From Arenibacter arenosicollis (GTDB taxonomy: Bacteria; Bacteroidota; Bacteroidia; Flavobacteriales; Flavobacteriaceae), in assembly GCF_014397245.1 (NCBI RefSeq), contig NZ_JACLHY010000010.1, positions 62,001 to 126,000 on the forward strand: a stretch of DNA of 64,000 nucleotides. Reading direction: 5' to 3'. Both the position numbers and the translations under genes were made by a program. Positions within the stretch are counted from its first letter, which is position 1; every line of letters starts with the position of its first letter. The notes below the pieces were generated by a model, which was not told where the DNA came from, ran no database searches, and saw only the letters and a list, made by a program, of their open reading frames with translations. Below, in pieces: positions 13,278 to 61,299 of the stretch.

Positions 13278-13320
13278 TGAAAGTACCTCACTTTAATAGC
13301 TACTACAATGACTTAAGTCA
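13278..13320 (-). promoter_or_regulatory. Crp/Fnr-type site plus −7 box, PepSY-like gene
   Basis: The palindrome TGACTTAAGTCA at 13309-13320 is flanked by A and T, giving 14 symmetric bases. On the minus strand TACTTTCA (13285-13278) starts 29.5 bp from its centre. This box is one of the weaker matches to TAnnTTTG (4 of 6 fixed bases). Confidence 0.6.
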
Positions 13321-13367
13321 TTCTGTCACTATTAGTTAAGAAAATACCTACATTCAGAAATTACAAC

Positions 13368-13410
13368 TGACCAATATCATATTATACCCAAAAAGAAGGA
13401 ACTAGATTTG
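13368..13410 (+). promoter_or_regulatory. Crp/Fnr-type site plus −7 box, flavin-binding stress gene
   Basis: TGACCAATATCA at 13368-13379 is followed by a full-consensus −7 box TAGATTTG at 13403-13410, starting 29.5 bp from the palindrome centre. The predicted transcript start is near 13415. It lies 48 bp from the divergent-facing site for the PepSY-like gene, so each divergent gene here appears to have its own site. Confidence 0.78.
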
Positions 13411-13496
13411 ATCTAATCATGCTTGGATGGGAATATTTTAGAGAATATTCTCTTCAAAATTTTCTAAGGAAGTATATAAATTATTTAAAAAGGAAT

Positions 13497-13949
13497 ATGA
13501 CAAATTTAACCACTAGCGAGAGTATTCGTTTACTTAAGGATAATTACACGGGTCACTTGGGATACATAACCCAAGATCAACCTTTTGTACTTCCTATCAC
13601 CTATTATTATGATAAGGAAGATCACTCAATAATAAGTTATTCCGCGGATGGCCATAAGATAGAGGCCATGCGAAAAAACAATGCGGTTTCCCTGTTAGTG
13701 GAGGAAATAAAATCAATAAACAACTGGCAATCCGTTTTGGCCCATGGAACTTATGAAGAACTTAAGGGTACCGATGCCAAGTTTAAATTGCATCAATTTA
13801 CGGAGGGGGTCAAAAGCCTTATCCTTGCCAAGGAGCATAGAGAAACAGAATTTATTAGTGAATTTTCCAGCAAATTGTACTCTAGGGGAATCCCAACCGT
13901 CTACCGTATTAAAATTTTAGAGATTACTGGAAAAAGAAAAGAGACCTAG
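13497..13949 (+). CDS. pyridoxamine 5'-phosphate oxidase-like FMN-binding protein (NimA-like)
   Basis: A 150-residue split-barrel protein of the pyridoxamine-phosphate-oxidase-like family (Pyridox_ox_2). The segment YTGHLGYITQDQPFVLPITY followed by HKIEAMRKNNAVSLLVEEI matches NimA-type flavin-binding proteins, which reduce small redox-active compounds. I prefer the ATG at 13497 (MTNLTTSESIRLL), preceded by AAAAAGGAAT, over an in-frame ATG at 13419 that would lie only about 4 nt after the predicted transcript start. It is the first gene before PEP synthase and has a strong regulon-type promoter. Flavin-binding nitroreductase-like proteins are also found in the mycobacterial DosR regulon. Confidence 0.8.
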   Translation: MTNLTTSESIRLLKDNYTGHLGYITQDQPFVLPITYYYDKEDHSIISYSADGHKIEAMRKNNAVSLLVEEIKSINNWQSVLAHGTYEELKGTDAKFKLHQFTEGVKSLILAKEHRETEFISEFSSKLYSRGIPTVYRIKILEITGKRKET

Positions 13950-14051
13950 AATATAAAACCCGCAGGTCGGTTCCCCTATTTTTCCAGCTATTTGTAATTA
14001 GCTGTACATTCTTGTATAAGTAATTTCAAGAAACCATTTATTGCATTGGTG

Positions 14052-16460
14052 ATGAAAAACTACATAAGACACTTTAACGAAATAGACATAAGCAATATTC
14101 CAGAAGTGGGAGGTAAAAATGCTTCATTGGGTGAAATGTATCAAAAACTGACTTCGAAGGGAGTTCAAGTTCCTGATGGGTTTGCCACTACTTCGGAAGC
14201 TTATTGGCTCTTTTTAAAGGAGGCAGGGTTAAAGGACTTCATTTTCATGGAAATGGAAAAATTGGATAAAAAAGATTTTTCCAATTTGAGGGAAGTTGGA
14301 ACCGCTATACGGAACAAAATTGCCAAAGCACAATTTCCTGAGGCCATTAAAACTTCCGTTGAAAAAGGATACATCACTATGGTGAAGAAATATGGACCTG
14401 AAATCTCCTTGGCCGTCCGCAGTAGTGCTACGGCAGAGGATCTTCCCAATGCCAGTTTTGCAGGGCAACAGGAAACCTATCTTAACGTGAGGGGTTTTGA
14501 TGAATTGATTGCTGCCTCTCATAAATGTTATGCATCATTGTTTACCGATAGAGCCATTAAATACCGAGAAGACAATAATTTTGACCAGACCACCGTAGCC
14601 CTATCCATAGGTATCCAATTAATGGTACGCTCAGATTTGGCCAGTTCAGGTGTAAATTTCACCTTAGATCCGGACAGTGGTTTTGATCAGGTAGTTCTTA
14701 TATCCAGCATATGGGGTCTAGGGGAAAATATTGTACAAGGCAGTGTAAATCCGGACGAATACTTCGTTTTTAAACCCAGTGTAAAAAAGGGCATACGCCA
14801 ACCCATAATTTCAAGAAAATTGGGAAGCAAGGAAAAAACAATGATCTATGACACTTCGGGCAGTGGCACCCTTAACCTGAATACCAAAATAGAAAAACAG
14901 GAACAATTTGTACTTACGGAGCCTGAGGTAATTAAACTGGCTGAATGGGCCATAATCATTGAGGAGCATTATGGACGTCCAATGGATATAGAATGGGCCA
15001 AGGACGGATTGACCAATGAACTGTTCATTGTACAAGCAAGACCCGAAACCGTGCAAAGTGCAAAAAAGAACAAGCTTAGAATTGCAACCTATACCCTACT
15101 CGAAAAAAGTAGGGAAATTACGAGCGGTATGGGTCTGGGCAACAAAATATCCGCTGGGAAAGCACGGATTATCCATAGTCCACTAGAATCCGATAAGCTA
15201 CAACCAGGAGAAATTCTTGTAACAGAAAAGACCGATCCCGATTGGGATCCCATTCTTAAAAAGGCGGCCGGTATTATTACCGACCAAGGTGGACGAACAA
15301 GTCACGCTGCCATTGTTGCCCGAGAGGTTGGCGCGGCAGCTATTGTGGGTACACTAAATGCCACTAAAACGATAACTGATGGCCAATATATTACCATCTC
15401 CTGTGCGGATGGGGATACCGGGGTAGTCTACGAAGGAATACTAAAATGGGATGAAAAAGTGGTGGATACCACAACATTGAAAAAACCATCAACCCAACCC
15501 ATGCTTATTCTGGCAGATCCGGAGCAGGCCTTCAAGCTGTCGTTTTATCCAACTGCCGGCGTTGGTCTGATGCGGTTGGAATTTGTGATCAACAATTCCA
15601 TCCAAATCCATCCCATGGCCCTAAAACGTTTTGATACTTTAAAAGATGTATCAGCCAAAAAGCTAATTGATAAACTAACCCACCACTACCCTGACAAGGC
15701 CGATTATTTTGTACATAAACTGGCAGAGGGCATTGCTACCATATCGGCAGCCTTTTACCCCAAAGATGTTATTGTGCGTACCAGTGATTTCAAATCCAAT
15801 GAATACGCCAATTTAATAGGAGGTAAGGAATTTGAGCCAATTGAGTCCAACCCTATGATCGGTTTTCGGGGAGCGTCTCGTTATTATCATCCCAAATACC
15901 AGGAGGCATTTGAGTTGGAATGCAAGGCTATGAAAATGGTTAGGGAAGACATGGGTTTTAACAATGTAAAGATCATGATTCCCTTTTGTCGTACTCTTAA
16001 GGAAGCTGAAAAAGTGGTTGGTATTATGGAAGATTATGGATTAAAAAGGGGAGAAAACGGCCTACAACTGTATATGATGACCGAAATTCCCAACAACGTA
16101 ATTCTCGCTGAGGAGTTTTCACAATTTTTTGATGGCTTCTCTATAGGCTCCAACGATCTTACCCAATTGACCTTGGGGGTGGACCGCGATTCAGAGCTCC
16201 TAAGCGATATTTTTGACCCCAAAGATCCGGGAGTAAAAAAAATGATCGCAATGGTCATCGCCTCGGCCCGTAAAACCAACACAAAAATTGGACTCTGTGG
16301 ACAGGCACCAAGTGATTATCCCGAGTTTGCCCAATTTCTTGTAGAACAAAGAATCAACTCCATATCCTTTAACCCTGATGCACTTATCGCTGGAATTAAA
16401 AATATAAATACGGCTGAGGAAAGTAAGATCAGCTTTGGAATGGCGGAAAGTAGTAATTGA
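14052..16460 (+). CDS. ppsA: phosphoenolpyruvate synthase
   Basis: An 802-residue enzyme converting pyruvate, ATP and water to PEP, AMP and phosphate. The N-terminal ATP-grasp-like domain has GGKNASLGEMY and AVRSSATAEDLPNASFAGQQ. The swivelling phosphohistidine domain has GGRTSHAAIVAREVG, whose His carries the phosphate. The C-terminal TIM barrel ends with GLCGQAPSDYPEFAQFL, including the catalytic Cys. All expected motifs are present at the usual length. ATG 14052 is preferred; an in-frame ATG two codons earlier (14046) is equally possible. The 102-bp gap after the flavin-binding gene has no TGA-N6-TCA, so it may be read from that gene's promoter. It would reverse the pyruvate end of glycolysis. 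Confidence 0.93.
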   Translation: MKNYIRHFNEIDISNIPEVGGKNASLGEMYQKLTSKGVQVPDGFATTSEAYWLFLKEAGLKDFIFMEMEKLDKKDFSNLREVGTAIRNKIAKAQFPEAIKTSVEKGYITMVKKYGPEISLAVRSSATAEDLPNASFAGQQETYLNVRGFDELIAASHKCYASLFTDRAIKYREDNNFDQTTVALSIGIQLMVRSDLASSGVNFTLDPDSGFDQVVLISSIWGLGENIVQGSVNPDEYFVFKPSVKKGIRQPIISRKLGSKEKTMIYDTSGSGTLNLNTKIEKQEQFVLTEPEVIKLAEWAIIIEEHYGRPMDIEWAKDGLTNELFIVQARPETVQSAKKNKLRIATYTLLEKSREITSGMGLGNKISAGKARIIHSPLESDKLQPGEILVTEKTDPDWDPILKKAAGIITDQGGRTSHAAIVAREVGAAAIVGTLNATKTITDGQYITISCADGDTGVVYEGILKWDEKVVDTTTLKKPSTQPMLILADPEQAFKLSFYPTAGVGLMRLEFVINNSIQIHPMALKRFDTLKDVSAKKLIDKLTHHYPDKADYFVHKLAEGIATISAAFYPKDVIVRTSDFKSNEYANLIGGKEFEPIESNPMIGFRGASRYYHPKYQEAFELECKAMKMVREDMGFNNVKIMIPFCRTLKEAEKVVGIMEDYGLKRGENGLQLYMMTEIPNNVILAEEFSQFFDGFSIGSNDLTQLTLGVDRDSELLSDIFDPKDPGVKKMIAMVIASARKTNTKIGLCGQAPSDYPEFAQFLVEQRINSISFNPDALIAGIKNINTAEESKISFGMAESSN

Positions 16461-17247: not shown

Positions 17248-17696
17248 TTCATCCACCAAGACATTGGGACAAATTGAAAAATATTCTACTTATTGCCTGT
17301 ACAGCTTTATATAGAAGCATAGTCCGTGACTTTCTTTACAGTATAATATTGATATTACCAAACGCATGATGACTTATATCATGTTACCTAAGCTTCATAA
17401 ATACTTCCTTTGTGATTATAATTAGAACACCGTATCGTGTTCCGTAATCCAATCTTATTCAAACAAGGATTAAGAATCCCGATTTTATTGAAAAAGGACT
17501 TTCCTGTAAAATAAAGGGGTTTTTAAACCCAATGAAAATAGAAAAACATATGTTAAAAACATGGAACATCCCATTTTGTAACGGCAATTCATGTGCCCAC
17601 TGATTTGGATCTAAGGAAAACCCTCGAATTGGTGCTTGCCAATTGTTGCAAAATCTAAATTAATTGAAACGTGAATAATTATAAACTCCGACTAAC
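17248..17696 (+). promoter_or_regulatory. long regulatory leader upstream of pfkB
   Basis: The palindrome TGACTTATATCA at 17370-17381 is followed at the standard 29.5-bp offset by TTCCTTTG (17405-17412), one mismatch from TAnnTTTG. The predicted transcript start near 17417 leaves a leader of about 280 nt before pfkB, far longer than the 10-130 nt at most other sites. The leader holds a short inverted repeat GGGTTT-TT-AAACCC (17517-17530) and a possible 23-codon reading frame. I cannot identify a known riboswitch. Confidence 0.6.
17532..17603 (+). CDS. possible 23-residue leader peptide before pfkB
   Basis: An ATG at 17532 opens a 23-codon frame ending in TGA. The peptide starts MKIEKHMLKTWNIPF and ends CNGNSCAH, with two cysteines. 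It sits inside the predicted pfkB leader, directly after the GGGTTT/AAACCC repeat. No homologue is recognised. It may be a chance reading frame. Confidence 0.2.
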   Translation: MKIEKHMLKTWNIPFCNGNSCAH

Positions 17697-20857: not shown

Positions 20858-20931
20858 TAAAATTAGAGCCTTATGTTGGATCAATAAATGACATCTGTCA
20901 TATAAGGTGATCTTTCTAAGCCCGATCTTCG
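20858..20931. promoter_or_regulatory. Crp/Fnr-type site between usp and pta
   Basis: TGACATCTGTCA at 20889-20900, flanked by A and T. On the minus strand TAATTTTA (20865-20858), one mismatch from TAnnTTTG, starts 29.5 bp from the centre and faces the usp gene. At the mirror position on the plus strand (20924-20931) GATCTTCG is a poor box, so activation of pta from here is possible but less certain. Confidence 0.65.
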
Positions 20932-23077: not shown

Positions 23078-23100
23078 CTTTAAAAGATAAATTCAAAACT

Positions 23101-24803: not shown

Positions 24804-24846
24804 TGACATATGTCATTTCAGGGGTCATTAGGTTTAGATAAATTTG
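24804..24846 (+). promoter_or_regulatory. best-consensus Crp/Fnr-type site plus −7 box
   Basis: TGACATATGTCA at 24804-24815 is the core of an 18-bp perfect palindrome (24801-24818, AAATGACATATGTCATTT). The full-consensus −7 box TAAATTTG at 24839-24846 starts 29.5 bp from its centre. The predicted start near 24851 leaves a 28-nt leader before the ATG at 24879. This is the clearest example of the window's promoter type. Confidence 0.82.
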
Positions 24847-29721: not shown

Positions 29722-29764
29722 CAAAAATGCCACCTTCCTACTTCAAAAAAAATGATTAATATCA
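29722..29764 (-). promoter_or_regulatory. Crp/Fnr-type site plus −7 box, sigma-factor operon
   Basis: TGATTAATATCA at 29753-29764. On the minus strand CATTTTTG (29729-29722), one mismatch from TAnnTTTG, starts 29.5 bp from the centre. The predicted start near 29717 gives a leader of about 27 nt for the sigma factor gene. Confidence 0.7.
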
Positions 29765-30364: not shown

Positions 30365-30438
30365 CCAAGTTAAGAATCTAATAGAATTTAGGATATGATT
30401 TAAATCATTTCAAAAGGAATTTGATAGCGTTAACTTTG
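30365..30438. promoter_or_regulatory. bidirectional Crp/Fnr-type site with two −7 boxes
   Basis: TGATTTAAATCA at 30396-30407 is a perfect palindrome extended by A/T to 14 bp. The plus-strand box TAACTTTG (30431-30438) is full consensus; the minus-strand box TAACTTGG (30372-30365) has one mismatch. Both begin 29.5 bp from the centre. Predicted leaders are about 46 nt (YtxH operon) and 42 nt (stress-like gene). Confidence 0.75.
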
Positions 30439-31425: not shown

Positions 31426-32493
31426 TTAAAAATCTGCCACAGTTCTCAGTCCCTCTACGTTTAAAATAATAATCCTTCTTCCATGATCGGTGGTAATTAA
31501 ACCTTCATCTTTAAAATCTGACAAAGTGCGGATGGCCGTTTCCGTGGCCGTACCGATCATTCCGGCAAAATCCTCTCTGGGGATTCCTAATCCACCATTT
31601 GGTTTATCCAGTATAACATTCTTATCGTAAAGCTCCAAAAGGGCCTTTGCAGCCCTCTGTCTTACGGAAGCAAAAGCCATATCCACTAATTGTTCCTGCA
31701 TGTGCATCAGATTATTGGAAATCATTCCAATGAATTTTTGCGAAACCACCGAGTTGCCATAAAGCAATTTCGTAAAATCATCCCTAGGTATGGTGCACAA
31801 TTCGGAGTCCTCCAAAACCATAGCACTTTCAACATATGCTATTTTGGAATTTAACAGGGAAAGTTGCCCGATAAAATCTCCTGGTCCAAAAATTCCCGTC
31901 ACAAATTCCTTTCCAGTTTCAGTGCCTTTATAAGTCTTGACACTGCCCTGTTCTATAAAAAATAAGGAATGGGCATTGTCACCTTCCCTAAAGATAATAT
32001 CCCTTTTATTATACTTTTTAAGGGAATAGTTCTTGGAAAGACTTTTAAGATCACTGTATTGTGACGCCTCGTCCATAAATTTATTGAGCCCTTCCATATT
32101 TTTGGCTATCTCCTTTTTAAGAAAGTCGCTTTTTCGTAGACGTGAGGCAATGGCTTCCAACAGTTCTTTTTCCTCAAAGGGTTTTGTCAAATAATCATCT
32201 GCCCCCAAATTCATTCCCAATCTCACCTCTGCCCTATCAGTTTTTGCAGTCAAAAATATAAAGGGTATACTAGAAGTTGTACTGTTTTTACCCACTTGTT
32301 CCAATACCCCATAACCGTCCAGTTCCGGCATCATAATATCACATATAATTATGTCTGGCCTAAACTTTTCGGCAAGTTCGACCCCTATTTTCCCATTCTC
32401 GGCCGTAACCACCTCATAGTTGGACAATTCCAATATATCGGCCGTATTTTCCCTTACATCCTTGTTGTCCTCAATTAACAGAATTTTTTTCAT
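31426..32493 (-). CDS. response regulator with Crp/Fnr-type output (REC–cNBD–HTH)
   Basis: A 355-residue regulator. The receiver domain (1-125) has the acidic pair in LLIEDNKD, the phosphoacceptor D52 in IICDIMMPELDGYG, and the conserved T and K in FLTAKTD and LTKPFEE. A cyclic-nucleotide-binding-like barrel (about 155-270) follows, then a Crp-type winged helix. In the barrel the phosphate-binding Arg of cAMP-binding proteins is replaced (AYVESAMVLED), so cAMP binding is doubtful and phosphorylation is the likely switch. The recognition helix TATETAIRTLSDF has Glu318 and Arg322 at the positions that contact TGA half-sites in CRP and FNR. It overlaps its partner kinase gene by 23 nt. The operon has its own TGA-N6-TCA promoter, which suggests autoregulation. 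Confidence 0.9.
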   Translation of the reverse strand: MKKILLIEDNKDVRENTADILELSNYEVVTAENGKIGVELAEKFRPDIIICDIMMPELDGYGVLEQVGKNSTTSSIPFIFLTAKTDRAEVRLGMNLGADDYLTKPFEEKELLEAIASRLRKSDFLKKEIAKNMEGLNKFMDEASQYSDLKSLSKNYSLKKYNKRDIIFREGDNAHSLFFIEQGSVKTYKGTETGKEFVTGIFGPGDFIGQLSLLNSKIAYVESAMVLEDSELCTIPRDDFTKLLYGNSVVSQKFIGMISNNLMHMQEQLVDMAFASVRQRAAKALLELYDKNVILDKPNGGLGIPREDFAGMIGTATETAIRTLSDFKDEGLITTDHGRRIIILNVEGLRTVADF

Positions 32494-35224
32494 ACTCGTT
32501 TATATTTACAGGGAGTTTTAGGCTAAACGTGCTTCCTTCTCCCATTTTACTTTTAAAACTTATGCTGCCACCCAATAGTTCCGTATACTGCTTTACAATA
32601 TGAAGTCCAAGACCTGTTCCTTGTATGTTAGTTGCATTTTCAGCCCGAAAGAAACGGTTAAATAGATTTTTATGCTCCTCCTTGGGTATGCCCATGCCAT
32701 TATCCTTAATAGCAATGAATAAGCTTTTCCTTTTTATTGAAATTTTAATGTTGATCATTTGTTGCTGTTCCGAATACTTTATTGCATTGGTGAGCAGGTT
32801 TATTAAGATATGGCTCAATAATTTAGGATCCAGAAAAACGGTTATTGCAGGCTTGGAATGCTCTAAAAAAATGTTCTGACCCTCTTTTTTGTTTGGTTCC
32901 ATCTCATCAATCAATATTTTTACAAATTGTATCAAATCAAAAATCTGTGGTTTTACCTGTACCATACCCTCCTCCAGCTTACTAAGGGATAAAAAATCGT
33001 TTAGAATAACAACAAGGTCCCTTACATTTGTCGTTATCCTGGTTACATGTTTCATCCTTCTATCCTCCTTTCCCGGTTCATTCTGTTTTCCTATTAGGAT
33101 GGCAGATGAAAGTATGGCGCTCAGCGGAGTTCGAAACTCATGGGAGGCAATTGAGATAAAACGTGATTTCAACTCATTTAGCTCCTTTTCCACCAACAGC
33201 GTCTTTTCCAATTTATACTGAACTTCTTTTTGTTCGGTAACATTGTTATAGACAAACAAGGCCCACTTAATTTCTTTTTCATCGGAATAGAGGGGTGTGG
33301 AATTAACTGCATAGTATTGATCTTTAAATTCTATTTCGAAGGAAATATTTGCCCCCTCCAATGTCTTTTCTATATCCGACTTTATCTTTTTTAGCTGCTG
33401 TTTTGAAAAAATAGGGATGTCATATATTGGAATCCCTTCAAAATGGGACTTCATAATATCAATACGGTCCATTTCCTCTCCTTCCACATATACAAGTTCA
33501 TAATCTGTATTAAAGATCATTATTACTCCATTGGGGAAATTATGAGCTATGGCCGTAAACAATGCCTGACTAAGTTTGGCCTTTCTTTCCGCCCTATTAG
33601 TTTCCACTACCTGGTCTTCCAGGTTTAAGCTGGTAGTTACCAGTTGCTGAACGGCTGATTGCACTTCCTTGGTCTGTTCTTCCACTTTATACTCTAATTG
33701 TAGGGCATATTCCTCCAATTTCCTCTTGTTCTGCTGTATTTCGGTCACGTCGTTCAGGACCCCAATAATATGTGTCAGTTTTTGATCTTCATCATATAGC
33801 GGGGTAATGGACAGGTCATTCCAAAAAAGGGTGCCATCTTTACGATAATTTCGCAGCACCACCCTACAGGGCCTTCCCTGTTGAATAGCTATTGCCAAGT
33901 CCCTAATTTCAGGTTGATCGCGATCATCATTCTGTAAAAACCTACAGTTTTTCCCTATAACCTCACTCCCTTCGTAACCAGTTATATGGGTAAAGGACTG
34001 ATTACAATAAATAATAGGTAGTTCGGGGTCATGGGCATCCACAATAACGATTCCGTTGCCTGCAGCTTCCAAGGCCCTATTTCTAATATTCAAGGTATTC
34101 TGTATCAACTTGGTATCGGTTATATCCAATCCAGAACTTACGACCCCAACAATTTCATTATTACCATTCCTCAAGGCAGCATTGTTCCATTGAATTAAGC
34201 GCTCTTGCCCACCTTTGGAAACAACATGGTTTTCGTAAAAATTGGGCAGATTTAATTTATCCTCAAAAATAGACTCAAACAGTTCGATCAATTGCTTTTT
34301 GTTCCTTTTAGGTATAAATTCCGTAAACCAGTCTTTGTGCAAAATAGCATCTTGTTCAATTCCCAATATTTCACAGGTCCTTTTATTAACAAGTTCAACG
34401 GTATGGTCCTTATTGATGACCAGAAACATAGAAGGAGAAGTATCCATATATTGGCGAAGCAATTTTTTTTCCTTTACCAGGGCATTTTCCACTGTCTTTA
34501 AGTCCGTTACATCATGCATAAATCCTTCCCTTCTAAAAGGAACATTTTGGTCATCAGTTACAAATGAACCCTGCTCCCATATCCATTTTATTGCCTTTAG
34601 GGAGGTAATTATCCTATAGGAAAGCTGATATGCTCTTTTTTCCTTAACTGCCCTGCCAAGCTCCTTCAGAACTTTTGGCAGATCTTCATTGTGAATTAAA
34701 TTTTCCCAACTAAGTTCAGGGTCGTCATAAAATTGTTGGGGTGAATAACCACTTATAGCCTTACATGTCTCGCTGATAAACTCCATATAATAGGGACTGT
34801 GAGCCTTACAACTATACACTATTCCCGCTACATTGGACACCAAATTCCGAAACCTTCTATCACTTTCAAAAACAGGGGTGTCCGCTGGTTTACAATAGAG
34901 TGCAAATAAATTTTGACCTTTTAAGACTGTTGGGGCACACCTAATATCCAATGGAAAGCTAATTCCATTTTTTTTGAGGCCAAAAAACTGAATTGGTTCT
35001 GCTCTATTTTTCTTTGATTGGGCAGCCTCTGCATTTTTCTTCCAATCGGGAACGATCATATGAATATTCATGTTCGCCAATTCCCCAGCACTATAATCGA
35101 AAAGATTTTCAGCGGTTTGGTTTGCTATTAAAATAAAACCGAGCTCATTGACCACGAACAATCCTGCTAACGAAGCATCAAAAATGACTTGAAAAAGATC
35201 GGTATTTGTTATTTTTTCGTTCAT
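32471..35224 (-). CDS. multi-PAS hybrid-sensor histidine kinase containing a LOV domain
   Basis: A 917-residue sensor kinase without obvious membrane helices, so probably cytoplasmic. Domains in order: PAS (about 8-115), PAS_3-type (128-240), PAS (255-372), LOV (383-500), coiled coil, PAS (553-665), HisKA with H695 in SHEFRTPLSAIL, and HATPase with NLLTNAIKYS, DNGMGIP and GTGLGLHIV. The LOV core has the photoactive-cysteine motif GKNCRFLQ (C427) and flavin-contact Asn residues N459 and N469 in NYRKDGTLFWND. The usually conserved signalling Gln is Leu490 (IGVLNDVT). No receiver domain of its own; the downstream Crp-type regulator overlaps by 23 nt and is the evident partner. Expressed from the site at 35384-35395. 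Confidence 0.88.
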   Translation of the reverse strand: MNEKITNTDLFQVIFDASLAGLFVVNELGFILIANQTAENLFDYSAGELANMNIHMIVPDWKKNAEAAQSKKNRAEPIQFFGLKKNGISFPLDIRCAPTVLKGQNLFALYCKPADTPVFESDRRFRNLVSNVAGIVYSCKAHSPYYMEFISETCKAISGYSPQQFYDDPELSWENLIHNEDLPKVLKELGRAVKEKRAYQLSYRIITSLKAIKWIWEQGSFVTDDQNVPFRREGFMHDVTDLKTVENALVKEKKLLRQYMDTSPSMFLVINKDHTVELVNKRTCEILGIEQDAILHKDWFTEFIPKRNKKQLIELFESIFEDKLNLPNFYENHVVSKGGQERLIQWNNAALRNGNNEIVGVVSSGLDITDTKLIQNTLNIRNRALEAAGNGIVIVDAHDPELPIIYCNQSFTHITGYEGSEVIGKNCRFLQNDDRDQPEIRDLAIAIQQGRPCRVVLRNYRKDGTLFWNDLSITPLYDEDQKLTHIIGVLNDVTEIQQNKRKLEEYALQLEYKVEEQTKEVQSAVQQLVTTSLNLEDQVVETNRAERKAKLSQALFTAIAHNFPNGVIMIFNTDYELVYVEGEEMDRIDIMKSHFEGIPIYDIPIFSKQQLKKIKSDIEKTLEGANISFEIEFKDQYYAVNSTPLYSDEKEIKWALFVYNNVTEQKEVQYKLEKTLLVEKELNELKSRFISIASHEFRTPLSAILSSAILIGKQNEPGKEDRRMKHVTRITTNVRDLVVILNDFLSLSKLEEGMVQVKPQIFDLIQFVKILIDEMEPNKKEGQNIFLEHSKPAITVFLDPKLLSHILINLLTNAIKYSEQQQMINIKISIKRKSLFIAIKDNGMGIPKEEHKNLFNRFFRAENATNIQGTGLGLHIVKQYTELLGGSISFKSKMGEGSTFSLKLPVNINEYEKNSVN

Positions 35225-35352: not shown

Positions 35353-35395
35353 CAAATGTATTGGTATCCTAAGCTGTAAGAAATGACATCCGTCA
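35353..35395 (-). promoter_or_regulatory. Crp/Fnr-type site plus −7 box, LOV kinase/regulator operon
   Basis: TGACATCCGTCA at 35384-35395. The minus-strand box TACATTTG (35360-35353) is full consensus and starts 29.5 bp from the centre; the mirror position on the plus strand has no box. Predicted start near 35348, leader about 124 nt. This places the kinase/regulator pair under the control it is proposed to exert. Confidence 0.78.
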
Positions 35396-35431: not shown

Positions 35432-35474
35432 TGATAAAGGTCATATGCGTATTTGTTAATATGGAATAATTTTG
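35432..35474 (+). promoter_or_regulatory. Crp/Fnr-type site plus −7 box, patatin gene
   Basis: TGATAAAGGTCA at 35432-35443 is less symmetric but is followed at exactly 29.5 bp from its centre by full-consensus TAATTTTG (35467-35474). Predicted start near 35479, leader about 20 nt. It is separate from the kinase operon's site 48 bp away. Confidence 0.74.
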
Positions 35475-39215: not shown

Positions 39216-39234
39216 AAGGATAATAATTAAATAA

Positions 39235-39825: not shown

Positions 39826-39899
39826 CTAAAGTACATCCAACTAGCCTAGTACAAAATGATTTAGGTCAGTCCCATAAAATTTCTTTACATTTAATTTTA
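39826..39899. promoter_or_regulatory. bidirectional Crp/Fnr-type site between hsp20 and ATPase 2
   Basis: TGATTTAGGTCA at 39857-39868. Boxes begin 29.5 bp from the centre on both sides: TACTTTAG on the minus strand (39833-39826) toward hsp20 and TAATTTTA on the plus strand (39892-39899) toward the ATPase, each one mismatch from TAnnTTTG. Confidence 0.72.
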
Positions 39900-40010
39900 C
39901 TATATCCAATAATCGCATAAAAATAATTTTTTCCCTGTCTATTTTCGGGATAGCAAGTGCGGTTCAATTTTAAGACAGGGCTCGGTACATTTTTTATTCA
40001 AGATCCTATG

Positions 40011-47147: not shown

Positions 47148-47190
47148 CGAAGATATTCGCACAGTGCGACTTTGACAATGACAATTGTCA
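47148..47190 (-). promoter_or_regulatory. Crp/Fnr-type site plus −7 box, site-2 protease gene
   Basis: TGACAATTGTCA at 47179-47190, a perfect palindrome flanked by A and T. The minus-strand box TATCTTCG (47155-47148), one mismatch from TAnnTTTG, starts 29.5 bp from the centre. Predicted start about 10 nt before the ATG at 47133, so nearly leaderless. Confidence 0.72.
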
Positions 47191-49312: not shown

Positions 49313-49734
<422 letters not shown>

Positions 49735-50596: not shown

Positions 50597-50998
50597 TTAC
50601 TTTAGTAATATTTCCAATTTTCCCAACAGTACCAATTCCGCTTTATTTTTTCCAGCAAAACTATTGGAAATGGCGTTGGCCGTATCCATAATCAACACCT
50701 TAATGAATGGGCTAAATATGCTGGCATTGTCCTTATAAAACTCCCTAAATTCCTCGAAGCATTCATCCCCATCCCTTTCATTGTCCACTAACCAATCGAA
50801 CACCGATTCTATCTGAAAGGCGGCATCGGTACCGTATTCATCCTCCAATTCATCTACCTCCAACCAATATTTTCGAATAAAGGCCCTTAACTTGTCAATT
50901 TCCTGCCTATGTATACGTGTGTCTGCCATTGCTACAGCGTAGAACAACTTTCCTAAATTCTCATAGAACTTCTTACCAACTTTCTTTATATTTTCCAT
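50597..50998 (-). CDS. TerB-like protein
   Basis: A 133-residue helical soluble protein. GKLFYAVAMADTRIHRQEID, followed by KLRAFIRKYW, matches the first helices of TerB/tellurite-resistance-type domains, which bind metal through acidic residues and occur in envelope-stress contexts. The remainder is acidic (DWLVDNERDGDECFEEFREF). It is divergent from the second histidine kinase. The site at 51055-51066 has a −7 box facing this gene at the standard spacing, with a 21-nt leader. Confidence 0.65.
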   Translation of the reverse strand: MENIKKVGKKFYENLGKLFYAVAMADTRIHRQEIDKLRAFIRKYWLEVDELEDEYGTDAAFQIESVFDWLVDNERDGDECFEEFREFYKDNASIFSPFIKVLIMDTANAISNSFAGKNKAELVLLGKLEILLK

Positions 50999-51023: not shown

Positions 51024-51066
51024 TAAAAATAGAGAATGACGTAGTTATTTTCTATGACAATAATCA
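51024..51066 (-). promoter_or_regulatory. Crp/Fnr-type site plus −7 box, TerB-like gene
   Basis: TGACAATAATCA at 51055-51066. The minus-strand box TATTTTTA (51031-51024), one mismatch from TAnnTTTG, begins 29.5 bp from the centre. On the plus strand a full box TATCTTTG (51079-51086) lies 18.5 bp from the centre and predicts a transcript starting at the kinase ATG itself, so the same site could hinder that promoter. Confidence 0.62.
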
Positions 51067-51090
51067 GTTTTAAAATTTTATCTTTGGATA

Positions 51091-52602
51091 ATGCAGGCCT
51101 TTCAAAAAAACAGTGAAATATTCAATCTTCTTTCTGAAGGTGTATCCGAAGGGATTATAGTTGTTAACACCGAACAGCTAATAGTCGCTACCAATTCCTC
51201 GGCGGGGCGAATGTTTGGTTACAAAAAGGGTGAACTTCTGGGAAAACCTTTGGAGACCCTGATACCGCGAAGGTACCATCATAACCACGGTCAAAACGTG
51301 GAACACTTTATTGAAAAAAGCGAACGACGGCAAATGGGCCAGGGAAGGGACCTACATGGAGTACGTAAAAATGGAGATGAATTTCCGGTCGAAGCAGGGC
51401 TTAATCCCTTTAAACTATATGACGAGACCTATGTTATGGCCCTTGTTATTGATATTACGGAACGTAAGATCAAGGAAAAGGAACTTAGCCATTGGGCCAG
51501 GATATTTGATGAATCACTGAATGAAATCTACGTGTTCCATGCTATCTCATTACATTTTTTAAATGTCAACAAGGAAGCTCAGCGGAATATGGGCTATGAC
51601 CTAGAGGAATTTAAGGCCCTGACTCCATTGGACATTAAACCCAATATGGATCCACCGCAATTTAAGCTTCTTATAGACCCGTTGTTGAGGGGAGAAAGGG
51701 ATAAGGTTAAGTTTGAAACCGACCACAAAAGAAAGGACGGATCTATTTATCCCGTAGAGGTGCATATTCAACTATCAATTCTTGGAGAAGAGCAGGTTTT
51801 TGTTGCCATAATACTCGATATAACAGAACGAAAAAATTACACGGAAAAACTAGAGAAAAAGGTTCAGGAACGTACCAAACAACTCACGGAAGCCCTCGCC
51901 AAGGAGAAAGAACTGAACGAATTAAAAACACGTTTTCTGTCCTTGGTTTCCCATGAATTTAAGACCCCTTTGAGCAGTATTCTGACCTCTATAACTTTAT
52001 TGGCCAAATACACTGAGGGCCACCAACAGGAAAAACGGGACAAACATGTAGATACTATAAAGAACAAAGTGCGGTACTTGGATACCATTCTAACCGATTT
52101 TCTTTCGGTAGAGCGTTTGGATTCCGGAAAGGTAAATTATAACATCGAGGACTTCCCTCTAAGCAAAGTTATAAACGAAGTGGTTTACGGGGCCAATATG
52201 CTGCTTAAATCGGGACAGCAAATCACATACCCCGAGAATATAGATGATATTTTCATCAGATTTGATGAAAGAACCTTGGAACTCGCCTTGTCCAACCTAA
52301 TTCACAACGCCATAAAATATTCCCCAGAGGACACGACCATTGATCTGGTGGTGAGCAATGGAGCCGGTAATATACTAATACAGGTCGTTGATCGTGGTAT
52401 TGGGATTCCTATCAAAGAACAAAAATATATTTTCAATCGTTATTTTAGGGCAGAAAATGCCTTGTTGAACCAAGGTACTGGCATTGGCCTTAACATTGCC
52501 AAACAACATTTGGAGAATCTTGGCTCTACCATTGAATTTAGCAGTGAAGAAAACAAAGGATCTATTTTTACAATAGTTATCCCCCTGGAAAACATAAATT
52601 AA
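51091..52602 (+). CDS. two-PAS sensor histidine kinase
   Basis: A 503-residue cytoplasmic-type kinase. PAS1 (about 10-125) has LETLIPRRYHHNHGQNVEHF and QMGQGRDLHGVRKNGDEFPV; His66 and Arg86 occupy positions resembling the heme-ligand His and distal Arg of rhizobial FixL, with the same 20-residue spacing. PAS2 spans about 135-250. After a coiled coil, HisKA has H288 in SHEFKTPLSSIL, and the HATPase domain has LIHNAIKYS, DRGIGIP and GTGIGLNIA. The Crp-type regulator gene follows after 7 nt. The heme assignment is a hypothesis: many PAS domains of this sequence type have no known cofactor. Confidence 0.88.
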   Translation: MQAFQKNSEIFNLLSEGVSEGIIVVNTEQLIVATNSSAGRMFGYKKGELLGKPLETLIPRRYHHNHGQNVEHFIEKSERRQMGQGRDLHGVRKNGDEFPVEAGLNPFKLYDETYVMALVIDITERKIKEKELSHWARIFDESLNEIYVFHAISLHFLNVNKEAQRNMGYDLEEFKALTPLDIKPNMDPPQFKLLIDPLLRGERDKVKFETDHKRKDGSIYPVEVHIQLSILGEEQVFVAIILDITERKNYTEKLEKKVQERTKQLTEALAKEKELNELKTRFLSLVSHEFKTPLSSILTSITLLAKYTEGHQQEKRDKHVDTIKNKVRYLDTILTDFLSVERLDSGKVNYNIEDFPLSKVINEVVYGANMLLKSGQQITYPENIDDIFIRFDERTLELALSNLIHNAIKYSPEDTTIDLVVSNGAGNILIQVVDRGIGIPIKEQKYIFNRYFRAENALLNQGTGIGLNIAKQHLENLGSTIEFSSEENKGSIFTIVIPLENIN

Positions 52603-52609
52603 GAGAACA

Positions 52610-53662
52610 ATGAAGACTATTTTATTGATCGAGGACGATAGGGCCTTACGCGAGAACACCGAAGAGCTATTGGAACTTTCAGGTTATTCCGTGACAACGG
52701 CACCTAACGGAAAAGTTGGCATTATAATGGCCAAGGAAATAATACCGGATATCATTGTCTGTGATATTATGATGCCAGAGTTGGATGGTTATGGGGTCTT
52801 AAAAGATCTGTCCTCCGATGAAAAGACTAGGCTAATTCCCTTTATATTTCTGTCTGCCAAAACGGAACACAAAGAAATACGAAAAGGAATGGATCTGGGT
52901 GCGGACGACTACCTTACCAAACCTTTTGAAGAAGAGGATTTAATAAGCGCCATTGAAAGCCGTTTGGCGAAAGTGGAGCTTCTGGGGAGGATGTCGCAAG
53001 AGGGCGCATTAAATCCACTGGCCACTGACAACCAAATACGCACTTTAAACGAGTTGAAGAACTTTTTTGACGATAACGGTGAACCTGTAAATATTGCGCA
53101 GGGTGGCACCATATATCAAGAAGGTTCATATAGCCATAAAATATACCTTATTTTAAAAGGAGTGGTAAAATGCCATACCATGGACGAGGATGGGAAGGAA
53201 TTGATCACCTCGCTTTACAGGGCGGACGACTTTTTGGGATTTACATCTTTTCTAGATAATGTTCCGTATCAGGAATCGGCAACGGCCATTGAAAATGTGG
53301 AACTGGCTGGTATTTCCAAAGAAAATTTAAAGCAGGTGTTGGAAAAGAATCACAACATATCCATGGAACTAATGGAACTTCTTACTGGAAATATAAAGGA
53401 TATTAAACAGCAATTGCTACAAATGGCCTATAGTTCGGTTCGTAAGAAAACGGCTCAAACCTTATTGCAATTTGCGGAAATCATGAACAATAAAACTGAG
53501 GATCCCATCAAAATTTCCCGAAATGATCTTGCCAGTGTAGCCGGTATTGCTACGGAAAGCCTAATACGTACACTCTCCGGGTTTAAAAAGGAAGGTTTGA
53601 TCGACATTGAGGGCAGAAATATACGAATCAAGGAATTAAAGGCCTTGCAGTTTATCAATTAG
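52610..53662 (+). CDS. second response regulator with Crp/Fnr-type output
   Basis: A 350-residue paralogue of the regulator at 31426-32493. Receiver with LLIEDDRALR, phosphoacceptor D52 in IVCDIMMPELDGYG, and LSAKTEH plus LTKPFEE. The cNBD-like barrel (YQEGSYSHKIYLILKGVVKC) again lacks the cAMP phosphate-binding Arg (QESATAI). In the HTH, IATESLIRTLSGF places Glu316 and Arg320 exactly where the paralogue has Glu318 and Arg322, with Ile before Arg in both, so the two should recognise the same half-site. No Fnr-type cysteine cluster is present. It ends the kinase/regulator operon, 107 bp before the Usp array. Confidence 0.9.
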   Translation: MKTILLIEDDRALRENTEELLELSGYSVTTAPNGKVGIIMAKEIIPDIIVCDIMMPELDGYGVLKDLSSDEKTRLIPFIFLSAKTEHKEIRKGMDLGADDYLTKPFEEEDLISAIESRLAKVELLGRMSQEGALNPLATDNQIRTLNELKNFFDDNGEPVNIAQGGTIYQEGSYSHKIYLILKGVVKCHTMDEDGKELITSLYRADDFLGFTSFLDNVPYQESATAIENVELAGISKENLKQVLEKNHNISMELMELLTGNIKDIKQQLLQMAYSSVRKKTAQTLLQFAEIMNNKTEDPIKISRNDLASVAGIATESLIRTLSGFKKEGLIDIEGRNIRIKELKALQFIN

Positions 53663-53703: not shown

Positions 53704-53746
53704 TGACCAATATCATATTACAACTTTGGCCATAACCGTAATTTTG
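53704..53746 (+). promoter_or_regulatory. Crp/Fnr-type site plus −7 box, Usp array gene 1
   Basis: TGACCAATATCA at 53704-53715 and full-consensus TAATTTTG at 53739-53746, 29.5 bp from the centre. Predicted start near 53751, leader about 19 nt. The 12-bp core is identical to those at 13368 and 49520. Confidence 0.8.
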
Positions 53747-54635: not shown

Positions 54636-54678
54636 TGATAAATATCATAGGTTTTATATGCCGCAACCAATAAATTTG
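54636..54678 (+). promoter_or_regulatory. Crp/Fnr-type site plus −7 box, Usp array genes 2-5
   Basis: TGATAAATATCA at 54636-54647 and full-consensus TAAATTTG at 54671-54678, 29.5 bp from the centre. Predicted start near 54683, 18 nt before the ATG. It probably drives four closely spaced usp genes. Confidence 0.78.
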
Positions 54679-58212: not shown

Positions 58213-58255
58213 TGATATTTGTCATTTGGGAACAGTCCCAGAGAGATTACTTTTA
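58213..58255 (+). promoter_or_regulatory. Crp/Fnr-type site plus −7 box, Usp array gene 6
   Basis: TGATATTTGTCA at 58213-58224 and TACTTTTA (one mismatch) at 58248-58255, 29.5 bp from the centre. Predicted start near 58260, leader about 27 nt. Confidence 0.74.
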
Positions 58256-58286: not shown

Positions 58287-59126
58287 ATGAAGAATATATT
58301 GATACCCACGGACTTTTCTGACAATGCTTGGAACGCCATTAAATATGGAACTGCATTGTACCATAAAACCAGATGCACTTTTCATATAATTCATATCAAT
58401 CCCATTTCCTACAATTCCGGCGGAGAAGCTGCCATGTATGTTTCACCAGAATTACTTGAGGAAACCATTTTAAAGGAAAGCAATGAAAAATTGGAACATT
58501 TACTTAAAGATGTTGAACGCTTGCCGCTTAACACCAAACATACCTTTAAAACAACAGCTCTCTACGGATTTTTTACCGATCACATAAAGCAGGAGGTCAA
58601 GGATAAAAATATCGACTTGATCATTATGGGGACTAAAGGAGCTACCGGCCTAAAAGCTGTTTCCTTGGGAAGCAACACAGGTAACGTGCTCACCAAAGTA
58701 AGATGTGCCGTTCTGGCTGTTCCCGAGGATGCCGAGTACACTTCCCCAAGGGAAATAGGATTTCCTACAGATTACCAATTAAGCTATGAAATAAAGGTTC
58801 TTGACCAAATTAAGGAACTTGCCTTAATGCACAATTCCGCATTACGGTTCCTTTATGTAGCGAAAAAAGGAGAAAACCTTAACGAAATGCAGCTGAATAA
58901 CAAGGAATTTTTAAAAAACTATTTCAGGGAAAACGAACACTCCTTTTATGTTCTAACAGAAAAAAAACTGGATGATGCTGTTCAAGCCTTTGTAGAAAGT
59001 AGGGATCTGGACATGTTGGTGATGGTGGCCAAGAACTTAAACTTTCTAGAGCGCATCCTCTTTAAACCAATGGTAGAAAAGATAAGTTACCATACCAAGA
59101 TTCCATTTCTAATAGTACACGAATAA
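58287..59126 (+). CDS. universal stress protein (array member 6)
   Basis: A 279-residue tandem-domain Usp. Start KNILIPTDFSDNAWNAIKYG; ATP motif GTKGATGLKAVSLGS; C-terminal array motif KNLNFLERIL. It resembles member 1 in the C-terminal half (VAKNLNFL in both). Converges on the thioredoxin gene. Confidence 0.9.
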   Translation: MKNILIPTDFSDNAWNAIKYGTALYHKTRCTFHIIHINPISYNSGGEAAMYVSPELLEETILKESNEKLEHLLKDVERLPLNTKHTFKTTALYGFFTDHIKQEVKDKNIDLIIMGTKGATGLKAVSLGSNTGNVLTKVRCAVLAVPEDAEYTSPREIGFPTDYQLSYEIKVLDQIKELALMHNSALRFLYVAKKGENLNEMQLNNKEFLKNYFRENEHSFYVLTEKKLDDAVQAFVESRDLDMLVMVAKNLNFLERILFKPMVEKISYHTKIPFLIVHE

Positions 59127-59149
59127 AAATAATACAGGGATACTTAAAA

Positions 59150-59449: not shown

Positions 59450-59467
59450 AATTATTTTTTTGCCAAG

Positions 59468-59541
59468 TAAAATTACCAAAACAATGAAGATACTGAACTG
59501 ACCGATATCATGGTTTTCAAAATTATTCTGATCTAGTTTTA
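59468..59541. promoter_or_regulatory. bidirectional Crp/Fnr-type site between trxA and Usp array gene 7
   Basis: TGACCGATATCA at 59499-59510. Boxes one mismatch from TAnnTTTG begin 29.5 bp from the centre on both sides: TAATTTTA on the minus strand (59475-59468) toward trxA and TAGTTTTA on the plus strand (59534-59541) toward usp. Predicted leaders are 14 and 19 nt. Confidence 0.77.
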
Positions 59542-59564
59542 CGGCACTAAAGTTATAAAATATC

Positions 59565-60404
59565 ATGAAACGAATTTTGCTTCCTACCGATTTTTCAGAC
59601 TATTCCTTTCAGGCCATAGGTTACGCTTTGAGCCTTTTCAAAAATATAAATTGCAGGTTTTTCCTGATTCATACCTATATGCCTCCAGTGTATAATGCGG
59701 AATATTTAGTTGGTAGTCCGGGACTTATAGGTCTGGGCGATGTAATGCAGGAAACATCCATGACACAACTGGAAAAACTAAAAAATCGACTTCAAAAGGA
59801 ACACAATAATTCCAAGCACAGTTTTACTGTACAAACCTCATTTAACACCCTCTTGAACGAGGTTATGGAAACAGTTGAATCCGAAGGTATAGATTTGGTG
59901 GTTATGGGGACCAAAGGTGCCACAGGAGCTAAGGAAATCCTTTTTGGGACGAATACCGTACACATTATAAAAAAAGCCAATTGCCCTGTTCTAGTTATAC
60001 CCCCAAATTTTGAGTACGAAAATCCCTTGGAAATATTATTTCCAACAGATTTTGAAATAGGGTACAATAAAGAATTACTAGCACCTCTTTTAGATATCGC
60101 TGAGGAGCATGGATCCCAAATTAATGTACTGCATGTATCCACGGGATATAAGCTTACTAAAGATCAAGAAAAACAAAAAAAGGGACTGGAAAAGATTTTA
60201 GAAAAAACGGCGCTGTTTCACGATGTGCCCAGCAACGACATTATAAATGCCATCAATGCCTTCCAAGCCAAGGAAAAAATTAACCTCTTGGTCATGATTC
60301 AGAACAAACATACCTTTTTTGAGCGTCTATTTATTGAGCCTGTAATTAAAAAAATAGGTTTTCATGTCAATATCCCTTTTATGGTTATTCCACAATTAAA
60401 ATAA
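59565..60404 (+). CDS. universal stress protein (array member 7)
   Basis: A 279-residue tandem-domain Usp. Start KRILLPTDFSDYSFQAIGYA; ATP motif GTKGATGAKEILFGT; C-terminal array motif NKHTFFERLF. It forms a two-gene operon with member 8 (6-nt gap). Confidence 0.9.
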   Translation: MKRILLPTDFSDYSFQAIGYALSLFKNINCRFFLIHTYMPPVYNAEYLVGSPGLIGLGDVMQETSMTQLEKLKNRLQKEHNNSKHSFTVQTSFNTLLNEVMETVESEGIDLVVMGTKGATGAKEILFGTNTVHIIKKANCPVLVIPPNFEYENPLEILFPTDFEIGYNKELLAPLLDIAEEHGSQINVLHVSTGYKLTKDQEKQKKGLEKILEKTALFHDVPSNDIINAINAFQAKEKINLLVMIQNKHTFFERLFIEPVIKKIGFHVNIPFMVIPQLK

Positions 60405-60410
60405 CGGAGA

Positions 60411-61259
60411 ATGAAAAATATACTTGTAGCGACCGATTTTTCCAATAATGCGTATTGCGCCCTTTTCTATGCAACAAAACTTTTGGCCTCCCAGTCCTGT
60501 ACATTTCACCTTCTGAACACCTATTCCGAGCTCACCATTTCTTCAGGCAAAACACTTCCGGTCTTGGGGATTAAAAAATATTTGAAACAATTGGAAACTG
60601 AATCCCTGGAAAAAATCACCCATATTAAGCACAAAATAGTCTTGGATAACGAGAATCCGCTTCACACCTTCAAGACTATTTCCCTAAAAGGTGATTTGGT
60701 CGATATTATAGAGCAAAAGGTCAAAGAACTTAGTATTGATTTAATAACCATGGGGAATAAAGGGCTGACAGAGACTGCCGACATATTCTTTGGGAGCAAT
60801 ACCATAAAGGTAGCCAATAACATAAAAGAATGCCCATTGTTGGCCATACCGGGCGAAATGGATTTTCACCCACCAAAGGAAATAGCCTTTGTTACCGACC
60901 TGAGAAAGAATTGTGACCAAAAAACACTTACCCCTCTTTTGTACATTTCCTCTTTATCCAAGGCCTCCATAAGGGTTGTGCACGTACATGAACAACATAT
61001 TTTGAACACGACCCAAGAAGCGAACAGAAAGCAGTTGGCAGAAGCTCTAAGCTCCCAAGGACATTCTTTTCAATGGATAAGGAACTTTGACGACAAGGCT
61101 AAGGTTATAGACGTTTTTTTGGAAAAACTGAAAGTGGATATGTATGCCATGGTACACGAAAAAAGGAGCCTTTTTGAAAAACTTACCCGAGAGCCTATAG
61201 TGAAAGATCTAAGTATGTATTCCGATATTCCATTTTTAATCCTTCCACCGTTGGCATGA
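60411..61259 (+). CDS. universal stress protein (array member 8)
   Basis: A 282-residue tandem-domain Usp. Start KNILVATDFSNNAYCALFYA; ATP motif GNKGLTETADIFFGS, slightly divergent; C-terminal motif EKRSLFEKLT. Its TGA stop (61257-61259) is also the first half of the next gene's regulatory palindrome. Confidence 0.88.
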   Translation: MKNILVATDFSNNAYCALFYATKLLASQSCTFHLLNTYSELTISSGKTLPVLGIKKYLKQLETESLEKITHIKHKIVLDNENPLHTFKTISLKGDLVDIIEQKVKELSIDLITMGNKGLTETADIFFGSNTIKVANNIKECPLLAIPGEMDFHPPKEIAFVTDLRKNCDQKTLTPLLYISSLSKASIRVVHVHEQHILNTTQEANRKQLAEALSSQGHSFQWIRNFDDKAKVIDVFLEKLKVDMYAMVHEKRSLFEKLTREPIVKDLSMYSDIPFLILPPLA

Positions 61260-61299
61260 CGATTGTCATAGTAACTGTGACTATAGCCCATTATATTTA
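61257..61299 (+). promoter_or_regulatory. Crp/Fnr-type site plus −7 box, Usp array gene 9
   Basis: TGACGATTGTCA at 61257-61268 and TATATTTA (one mismatch) at 61292-61299, 29.5 bp from the centre. The left half-site overlaps the stop codon of the preceding usp gene. Predicted leader about 22 nt. Confidence 0.74.

Follow-up and report, generated by a model that had tools for sequence, protein, structure and literature searches.

A palindrome at a fixed distance from Bacteroidota-type promoters in Arenibacter arenosicollis: a candidate class II-type operator shared by receiver-Crp and FNR-like regulators

The locus and its composite element

We analysed a stretch of 64,000 nucleotides (the window) from Arenibacter arenosicollis, a member of the Flavobacteriaceae (contig NZ_JACLHY010000010.1, positions 62,001 to 126,000). 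Here genes for universal stress proteins (Usps), Hsp20 and P-type ATPases stand round two pairs of a histidine kinase (HK) and a response regulator (RR). The intergenic regions repeatedly carry one composite element, consisting of the palindrome TGA-N6-TCA, 23 nt, and the box TAnnTTTG, whose first base lies 29.5 bp from the palindrome centre. The two pairs are the following.

RR1, 31426..32493, minus strand: receiver, cyclic nucleotide monophosphate-binding fold and Crp-type helix-turn-helix (HTH), an architecture termed REC-Crp
HK1, 32471..35224, minus strand: several PAS domains, one of them a LOV domain of the blue-light type (residues 383-510, GKNCRFLQ), HisKA and HATPase
HK2, 51091..52602, plus strand: two PAS domains, of which the first resembles FixL/DosP and keeps the histidine position of the haem ligand, then HisKA and HATPase
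RR2, 52610..53662, plus strand: a REC-Crp paralogue, 42% identical to RR1

The original prediction, made from the letters of the window, had listed nineteen such palindromes, each with a box on the side of a gene. All 19 are present, and at 18/19 the box at the 23-nt gap departs from TAnnTTTG by no more than one letter. As had been claimed, the box is exact at seven plus-strand sites and one minus-strand site, and most others differ by one letter: 10 further sites have one mismatch on the gene side, and 13309 has two. A twentieth site, 12378, was absent from that list and belongs to the set. Each site is given below by its palindrome and the strand of its promoter, with the box at gap 23 unless stated otherwise.

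12378..12389, minus strand: box 12347-12354 (TTATTTTG, one mismatch); HlyD-type/FtsX/ABC export genes 12349-9300 downstream, the export gene behind the site likely starting near 12325; palindrome and gap-23 box kept in 3/3 congeners whose stretch includes the gene (box mismatches 1, 1, 2)
13309..13320, minus strand: box 13278-13285 (TACTTTCA, two mismatches) towards gene 12709-13272, which is present in the stretches of only 1/5 congeners; the weakest member
13368..13379, plus strand: exact box 13403-13410; pyridoxamine 5'-phosphate oxidase-like gene 13419-13949, then pyruvate phosphate dikinase (PPDK) 14046-16460; box exact in 4/4 congeners with the gene in the stretch
17370..17381, plus strand: box 17405-17412 (TTCCTTTG); PfkB 17697-18638; a doubtful member
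20889..20900, both strands: between Usp 19869-20732 (minus; box 20858-20865, one mismatch) and pta-ackA 20984-24297 (plus; box with two mismatches)
24804..24815, plus strand: exact box 24839-24846; 128-aa gene 24879-25265, then ABC1 kinase-like gene 25271-26953
29753..29764, minus strand: box 29722-29729 (one mismatch); gene 28923-29690
30396..30407, both strands: exact box 30431-30438 towards YtxH 30489-30818 (plus); box 30365-30372 (one mismatch) towards 29827-30318 (minus)
35384..35395, minus strand: exact box 35353-35360; HK1-RR1 operon downstream; box exact in 4/5 congeners, one mismatch in the fifth
35432..35443, plus strand: exact box 35467-35474; patatin-like gene 35499-36308; exact in 5/5 congeners
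39857..39868, both strands: one mismatch each way, towards Hsp20 39325-39789 then P-type ATPase 36561-39275 (minus) and towards P-type ATPase 39957-42512 (plus)
47179..47190, minus strand: box 47148-47155 (one mismatch; two in 4/5 congeners); M50 peptidase-CBS gene, likely start 47133
49365..49376, minus strand: box 49334-49341 (one mismatch); WG-repeat gene 48674-49312
49520..49531, plus strand: exact box 49555-49562; Usp 49684-50559
51055..51066, both strands: box 51024-51031 (one mismatch, gap 23) towards 133-aa gene 50597-50998 (minus); exact box 51079-51086 at gap 12 towards HK2 (plus)
53704..53715, plus strand: directly 3' of RR2; exact box 53739-53746; Usp 53770-54624; exact in 5/5 congeners
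54636..54647, plus strand: exact box 54671-54678; Usp 54701-55546 and following Usps; exact in 5/5 congeners
58213..58224, plus strand: box 58248-58255 (one mismatch); Usp 58287-59126
59499..59510, both strands: one mismatch each way, towards Usp-like gene 59565-60404 (plus; called Usp from its start alone, without a family scan) and thioredoxin (minus; likely start 59449)
61257..61268, plus strand: box 61292-61299 (one mismatch); Usp 61326-62171

One spacing in window, genome and genus

TGA-N6-TCA occurs 36 times in the window against 18.2 expected, and 0/100 shuffles reached 36. When boxes with at most one mismatch were counted on both strands, gap 23 had 23 of them and each other gap between 5 and 60 had 0-4. 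In a first scoring, 18/19 palindromes with any intergenic base had a box of this quality, which gives a binomial tail of 2e-29 at a background of 2.2% per position. The coding palindromes then scored 1/17, the one being 59499, which was counted as coding because the thioredoxin start had been set too far upstream. With this start corrected, a box accompanies 19/20 intergenic palindromes, 12378 among the 20, and 0/16 coding ones. A tandem partner was also sought at -22 bp of the 19 sites and was not found, the best candidate having 3/6 core letters.

The search was extended to the whole genome (5.40 Mb, 77 contigs). With the gap left free between 8 and 38 there are 73 exact composites, 20 of them at gap 23 and 0-6 at each other gap. 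Eight of the 20 lie in the window and 12 outside it. One of the latter precedes the gene of an FNR-like regulator and has a one-mismatch box facing the opposite way, towards a copper ATPase. Others stand before genes for a radical-SAM protein, a DnaJ-type chaperone, a pyridine-nucleotide oxidoreductase, DeoC, MlaE, a 317-aa protein, a CheB/CheR-PAS protein and a 150-aa protein without Pfam match, and before a cytochrome c gene at the head of a cluster with a nos_propeller protein; two (C2:32905 and C38:512) have no clear target. We read the ATPase as ccoI and the radical-SAM gene as hemN, Pfam supplying the families. Two additional Usp genes have one-mismatch boxes.

The spacing is also kept in the genus. 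For five congeners we took the upstream regions of target orthologues, searching gap 23 alone and counting bidirectional palindromes once per gene, so that 24 site-gene pairings in five genomes gave 120 cells, 9 of them without an orthologue in the stretch. Among the remaining 111 promoters, 102 have an exact palindrome and a gap-23 box (38 exact, 54 with one mismatch, 10 with two); one Usp orthologue match (G011, 23% identity) is probably a paralogue. When the gap was left free on the same congener stretches as a control, 19-24 boxes (up to one mismatch allowed) fell at gap 23, against means of 0.65-0.80 elsewhere. Between orthologous promoters the spacer sequence drifts, and palindrome, box and gap length remain constant. 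The consensus is (A/C)TGA(C/T)-N4-(A/G)TCAT, with T after the palindrome in 47/47 exact composites of the genus. Gap 23 is thus the sole favoured spacing in the window, the whole genome and the five congeners. With two short motifs, one of them (the box) rich in A and T, coincidence in AT-rich intergenic DNA deserved consideration. However, a single spacing peak in several sets, coding palindromes without boxes, and spacers that drift while the gap stays make chance barely credible, and we rejected it on the spacing, coding-versus-intergenic and footprint tests.

Regulators and sensor kinases

The original prediction had spoken of two Crp-type regulators. These are REC-Crp response regulators with kinases of their own, and an FNR-like protein encoded elsewhere has the same recognition helix. 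RR1 and RR2 belong to the Crp/Fnr superfamily (Pfam PF00027 and PF13545 above cut-off) and each adjoins a PAS histidine kinase, as expected of two-component response regulators. In the receiver, the phospho-acceptor Asp52 and Lys104 are invariant in 15/15 aligned. The receiver sits at the N-terminus, and the alignment reveals no FNR-type N-terminal cysteine cluster in either protein. Their output domain is HTH_Crp_2 and not the NarL type of DosR. Among the best 60 of 221 solved chains, none has a best stretch covering both receiver and Crp output. Four HTH_Crp_2 proteins in the genome score above the Pfam cut-off, namely RR1, RR2, the FNR-like regulator and one on contig C14, whose recognition helix lacks the Glu (alignment by eye). 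Weaker HTH_Crp_2 hits on C13 and C77, with PESLSR helices, may bind the operators too.

In the Protein Data Bank (PDB), CRP chains give the best alignments to the RR1 C-terminal part, as they might if the window held an ordinary cAMP-CRP regulon. However, at the positions E, R and S of CRP, which we take to be its cAMP contacts, RR1 (the only one aligned) has Q, K and I, and a receiver domain with an adjoining kinase would offer another input than cAMP. Such a regulon is very improbable, and cAMP control of RR1 was rejected on these contact residues.

HK1 residues 383-510 find LOV proteins as their best PDB matches, and we take NCRFLQ to be the LOV motif with the photoactive cysteine. The Cys, Arg and Gln of the LOV core are kept in 5/5 congeners and three further Flavobacteriaceae loci (L074, L078, L083); L079 and L082 keep the Cys and not the Arg. 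By sequence HK1 is thus a LOV photoreceptor kinase with putative flavin binding. The first PAS domain of HK2 matches FixL (E=1e-13) and DosP, and its aligned histidine is presumably the haem ligand known from FixL. This histidine occurs in 61/68 relatives scoring at least 100 (86 frames in all); the same residue is found also in PAS domains not known to bind haem. We regard HK2 as a FixL-type haem-PAS kinase in its sequence, haem binding being putative.

The recognition helices read ATETAIR in RR1, ATESLIR in RR2 and ATESAIR in the FNR-like regulator. They have Glu and Arg in common at the core-reading positions, and all three proteins would therefore be expected to bind the same operator. Neither residue was demanded by the search pattern, and the two are found in 70/72 parsed REC-Crp frames (8/80 unparsed) and 25/25 parsed FNR-like proteins (5/30 unparsed). 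According to PMC1274295, CRP position 180 is linked with the outer G and position 181 with the inner A of the half-site. In the REC-Crp and FNR-like helices the position of Arg180 is replaced and Glu181 is kept, which fits a TGA core without an outer TG (PMC1274295). It is therefore probable that one operator is shared by several regulators, rather than that the sites form the one regulon originally proposed. Of the members then named, PfkB and a sigma factor proved weak. The box before PfkB has its mismatch within TA and lies ~280 bp from the start codon, and the site was found in 2/5 congeners and not in 3/5. The supposed sigma factor, 28923-29690, was dropped as a member: its Sigma70 region 4 match falls below the Pfam cut-off (19.9 vs 25.7 bits).

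Four cysteines are found in the C76 regulator and more widely in FNR-like regulators of Bacteroidota (L061:3879-4565, minus strand, and L182-L211), spaced C-x2-C-x45-C-x52-C in 20/24 parsed relatives. The cysteine spacing of Escherichia coli FNR differs, and the pattern is possibly another cluster arrangement.

REC-Crp loci of relatives and the tandem form

At least 80 REC-Crp loci were surveyed on named contigs (1.38 Mb). Nearly all are titled Bacteroidota, the others being L106, L111 and L150 (Deltaproteobacteria, Alphaproteobacteria, Bacteriovoracaceae) and L100, which has no title. In 80 loci there are 54 exact composites at gap 23 and 40 at gap 45, no other gap between 5 and 60 having more than 6. 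When 64 trinucleotide inverted repeats with spacers of 2-10 were compared, TGA-N6-TCA at gap 23 came first, and the four ranked after it read this element in a shifted register. At least one exact palindrome accompanies 73 boxes, and at 21 of them both palindromes are present at a distance of 22 bp. These tandem pairs stand at 0/23 boxes in L074-L086 (Flavobacteriaceae, apart from L085, which has none) and at 21/50 in the other loci.

A histidine-kinase motif is present in a neighbouring frame at 71/80 REC-Crp genes. By a simple rule, 66 boxes have a downstream open frame, representing 65 distinct proteins. Among the first 25 of 42 families, these frames include 13 Usp, 7 histidine kinase, 6 COX1 and 6 FixO matches, with 3 BON, 3 YtxH and one each of Hsp20, E1-E2 ATPase and patatin. 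The six COX1 and six FixO matches are probably the same six frames, fused cbb3 subunits. They probably correspond to the frames of ~700-740 aa behind a composite in L093, L097, L101, L103, L119 and L121, an assignment by length alone.

Proposed class II-type activation and its alternatives

At class II promoters of E. coli, 29.5 bp separate the operator centre from the first base of the -10 element. The composite has the same distance, as had been predicted, in one fixed operator-to-promoter geometry that is kept among congeners. From this equality we infer class II activation by the phosphorylated REC-Crp proteins and the FNR-like regulator. With the box centred at -7, as in PMC7366714, the operator centre would lie near -40 to -41.5.

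Our preferred reading, with a probability of about 0.7, is class II-type activation of a micro-oxic or dormancy-like regulon by the kinase/REC-Crp pairs, through an operator shared with the FNR-like regulator. We infer phosphorylation, binding, activation, transcript starts, signals, physiology and the division of sites between regulators, as follows. The palindromes would be operators for Crp/Fnr-type dimers at the class II position, with their centres at about -40 to -41.5, and the promoters would belong to the Bacteroidota primary sigma factor, with TAnnTTTG as the recognisable core. In the pairs HK1 (LOV)/RR1 and HK2 (haem-PAS-like)/RR2, the kinases would phosphorylate and so switch on the REC-Crp proteins. 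These would then bind the operators and activate the Usp, Hsp20 and ATPase genes, pta-ackA and the pyridoxamine oxidase-like/PPDK genes. They would also control their own operons, HK1-RR1 being autoregulated via 35384. The FNR-like regulator would share the operator and add respiratory targets (hemN-like, ccoI, nosZ-type cluster). The whole would amount to a response to micro-oxic conditions and energy starvation, similar to dormancy.

A missing -33 TTTG was initially considered as proof of activator dependence and was dropped, with few boxes in the window to judge by (0/8 composite, 2/7 other). TTG at N17-21 is rare, at 3/47 genus composites and 4/54 wider composites.

The palindromes might instead serve repression or DNA architecture, and the HK2 promoter speaks for this. 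The original prediction had given 51055 the common spacing. This is true towards the divergent small gene, and on the kinase side the palindrome stands 12 nt from an exact box, over the -30 region, in the window and 5/5 congeners. There the ATG follows the box by 4 nt in 6/6 genomes (region 51055-51093). The short gap and the close ATG together suggest that HK2 is negatively autoregulated and that its transcript is nearly leaderless. As an account of the whole set, however, repression or architecture is improbable: class II activation is laid out with a single constant gap upstream, the box being left free, and repressor sites usually vary in position.

A more substantial rival gives the operators to the FNR-like regulator alone, with REC-Crp acting elsewhere or on its own operons only. 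The FNR-like gene, outside the window beside ccoI, has the exact composite at its own promoter, and its product has the same recognition helix. To separate the two we drew 148 genomes from the phylum, 37 of the window's own class and 111 others. They contain the gap-23 composite 390 times, against 58 for a backward-read control. Full-length REC-Crp is found in 23 genomes, all among the own-class 37 and 0/111 others (25 genomes matched at E<=1e-40, of which G046 and G070, with receiver-only matches, were dropped). FNR-like relatives at E<=1e-30 are found in 31. The mean number of composites per genome is 12.0 with both regulators (n=12), 4.8 with REC-Crp only (11), 4.5 with FNR-like only (19) and 1.0 with neither (106). 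FNR-like genomes without REC-Crp therefore do have composites, as this rival expects. However, so do genomes with REC-Crp and no FNR-like relative, and composites cluster round REC-Crp genes: 24/116 lie within 20 kb of one, against 1.2 expected (12 REC-Crp genomes with matches fully listed, of 23).

The tandem form points the same way. It occurs 23 times in 13 genomes (overlapping divergent tandems in G000 and G087 being counted twice) and 0 times in the control. Tandems are present in 11/23 REC-Crp genomes vs 2/125 others (Fisher p 7e-9), and within the own class in 11/23 vs 1/14 (p 0.013). They favour REC-Crp-only over FNR-only genomes, at 5/11 vs 1/19 in the phylum sample (p 0.016). They precede frames read, without a family scan, as CcoN, CcoI, Usp, Hsp20, PPDK and D-lactate dehydrogenase. 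In G026, G048, G122 and G145 a tandem lies at most 30 bp from the end of the REC-Crp match, which may be compared with 53704 after RR2.

Several observations count against our preferred reading. Within the own class, genomes with the FNR-like regulator only average 7.0 composites (n=11), those with REC-Crp only 4.8 (n=11) and those with neither 2.3 (3), so that site counts do not favour REC-Crp over FNR-like. Likewise, the tandem contrast within the class (REC-Crp-only 5/11 vs FNR-only 1/11) is not significant (p 0.15), and the within-class comparison separates the two regulators weakly. All these genome comparisons, of site counts and of tandems, ignore shared ancestry. Two genomes that lack REC-Crp (G040, G074) also have tandems, and within the Flavobacteriaceae they occur once in the window's genome (C1) and in G048, so that in this family the single operator is usual but not universal. 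The REC-Crp and FNR-like helices are nearly identical, so that single sites are not assignable to either regulator. In the footprint, 8/111 orthologue promoters are without the element (PfkB 3, one P-type ATPase 1, HK2 4) and 1/111 has a mismatched palindrome. Lastly, a -33 motif was not identified in Flavobacterium johnsoniae according to PMC7366714, which weakens any argument from -33. On balance we consider sole control by the FNR-like regulator rather unlikely, and class II-type activation by the kinase/REC-Crp pairs with a shared operator remains our preference.

Relation to known systems

The closest likeness in gene content is with DosR/DevR of Mycobacterium and OsdR of Streptomyces. 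According to PMC5069765, the DevR regulon includes Usps, nitroreductases and heat-shock proteins, and predicted OsdR targets include Usps, PPDK and pyridoxamine 5'-phosphate oxidase; Usp genes also lie close to the regulator. The two kinase/regulator pairs of the window likewise stand among many Usps, P-type ATPases, Hsp20 and a pyridoxamine oxidase-like gene with PPDK behind it. Two-component control with an oxygen-binding kinase is a further likeness, represented here, to judge by sequence, by the FixL-like PAS of HK2. Unlike these systems, the window has a Crp/Fnr-type output, promoters of Bacteroidota type and one kinase with a LOV domain. The regulators DosR and OsdR are NarL-type. As the output domains are unrelated, we favour convergence as the explanation of the similar content.

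With rhizobial FixL-FixJ-FixK the window shares a FixL-like PAS kinase, a response regulator and a Crp/Fnr output, and relatives share COX1/FixO targets. FixJ and FixK are separate, successive regulators in rhizobia. Here the receiver is fused to the Crp/Fnr output, and the transcription step from FixJ to FixK is therefore absent.

E. coli FNR/CRP class II promoters have the TGA-N6-TCA core and the 29.5-bp distance in common with the window. The sites there read TTGAT or TGTGA, whereas the window has the flanks (A/C)TGA(C/T)...(A/G)TCAT and the box TAnnTTTG, and many relatives have tandem operators 22 bp apart. HcpR, DNR and NnrR belong to the Crp/Fnr family, like RR1 and RR2. HcpR2 occurs in Bacteroides according to PMC1274295, with the motif GTAAC-N4-GTTAC, which differs from TGA-N6-TCA.

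Among the matches listed from titles and abstracts of openly licensed PMC articles, none reports on this regulon, on class II activation in Bacteroidota or on the function of REC-Crp proteins. Tentatively, and with the odds somewhat against the full statement, we hypothesise a hypoxia/dormancy system widespread in the window's Bacteroidota class, in which a receiver-Crp/Fnr fusion would collapse FixJ and FixK into one protein. In many lineages it would act through two operators in tandem, at about -41.5 and -63.5; in Flavobacteriaceae it would mostly act through one. In this genus, LOV and haem-PAS kinases would feed both light and oxygen signals into one gene set, which would have arisen in parallel with the DosR regulon of mycobacteria. 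The composite offers a sequence-defined candidate activator promoter for Bacteroidota, with operator, fixed spacer, box and named candidate regulators and kinases. If this is true, the class II layout would be retained under a primary sigma factor and a promoter of a quite different kind. Moreover, it would point to a dormancy-type programme in aquatic Bacteroidota, DosR-like in content, under another regulator family and with light as a possible second input.

Further observations

Glycoside hydrolase, glycogen-debranching and phosphorylase genes (148-4780; 43299-45863) flank the cluster or lie within it, and none of the listed sites stands directly upstream of them. The TGA of palindrome 61257 (61257-61259) doubles as the stop codon of the frame before it, 60411-61259. 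The sole exact tandem in the window's genome (L067:5069-5102; C1:465037-465132) has its two palindromes 22 bp apart between two divergent promoters. Each promoter has the nearer palindrome at gap 23, and the targets are the MlaE permease and the 317-aa protein.

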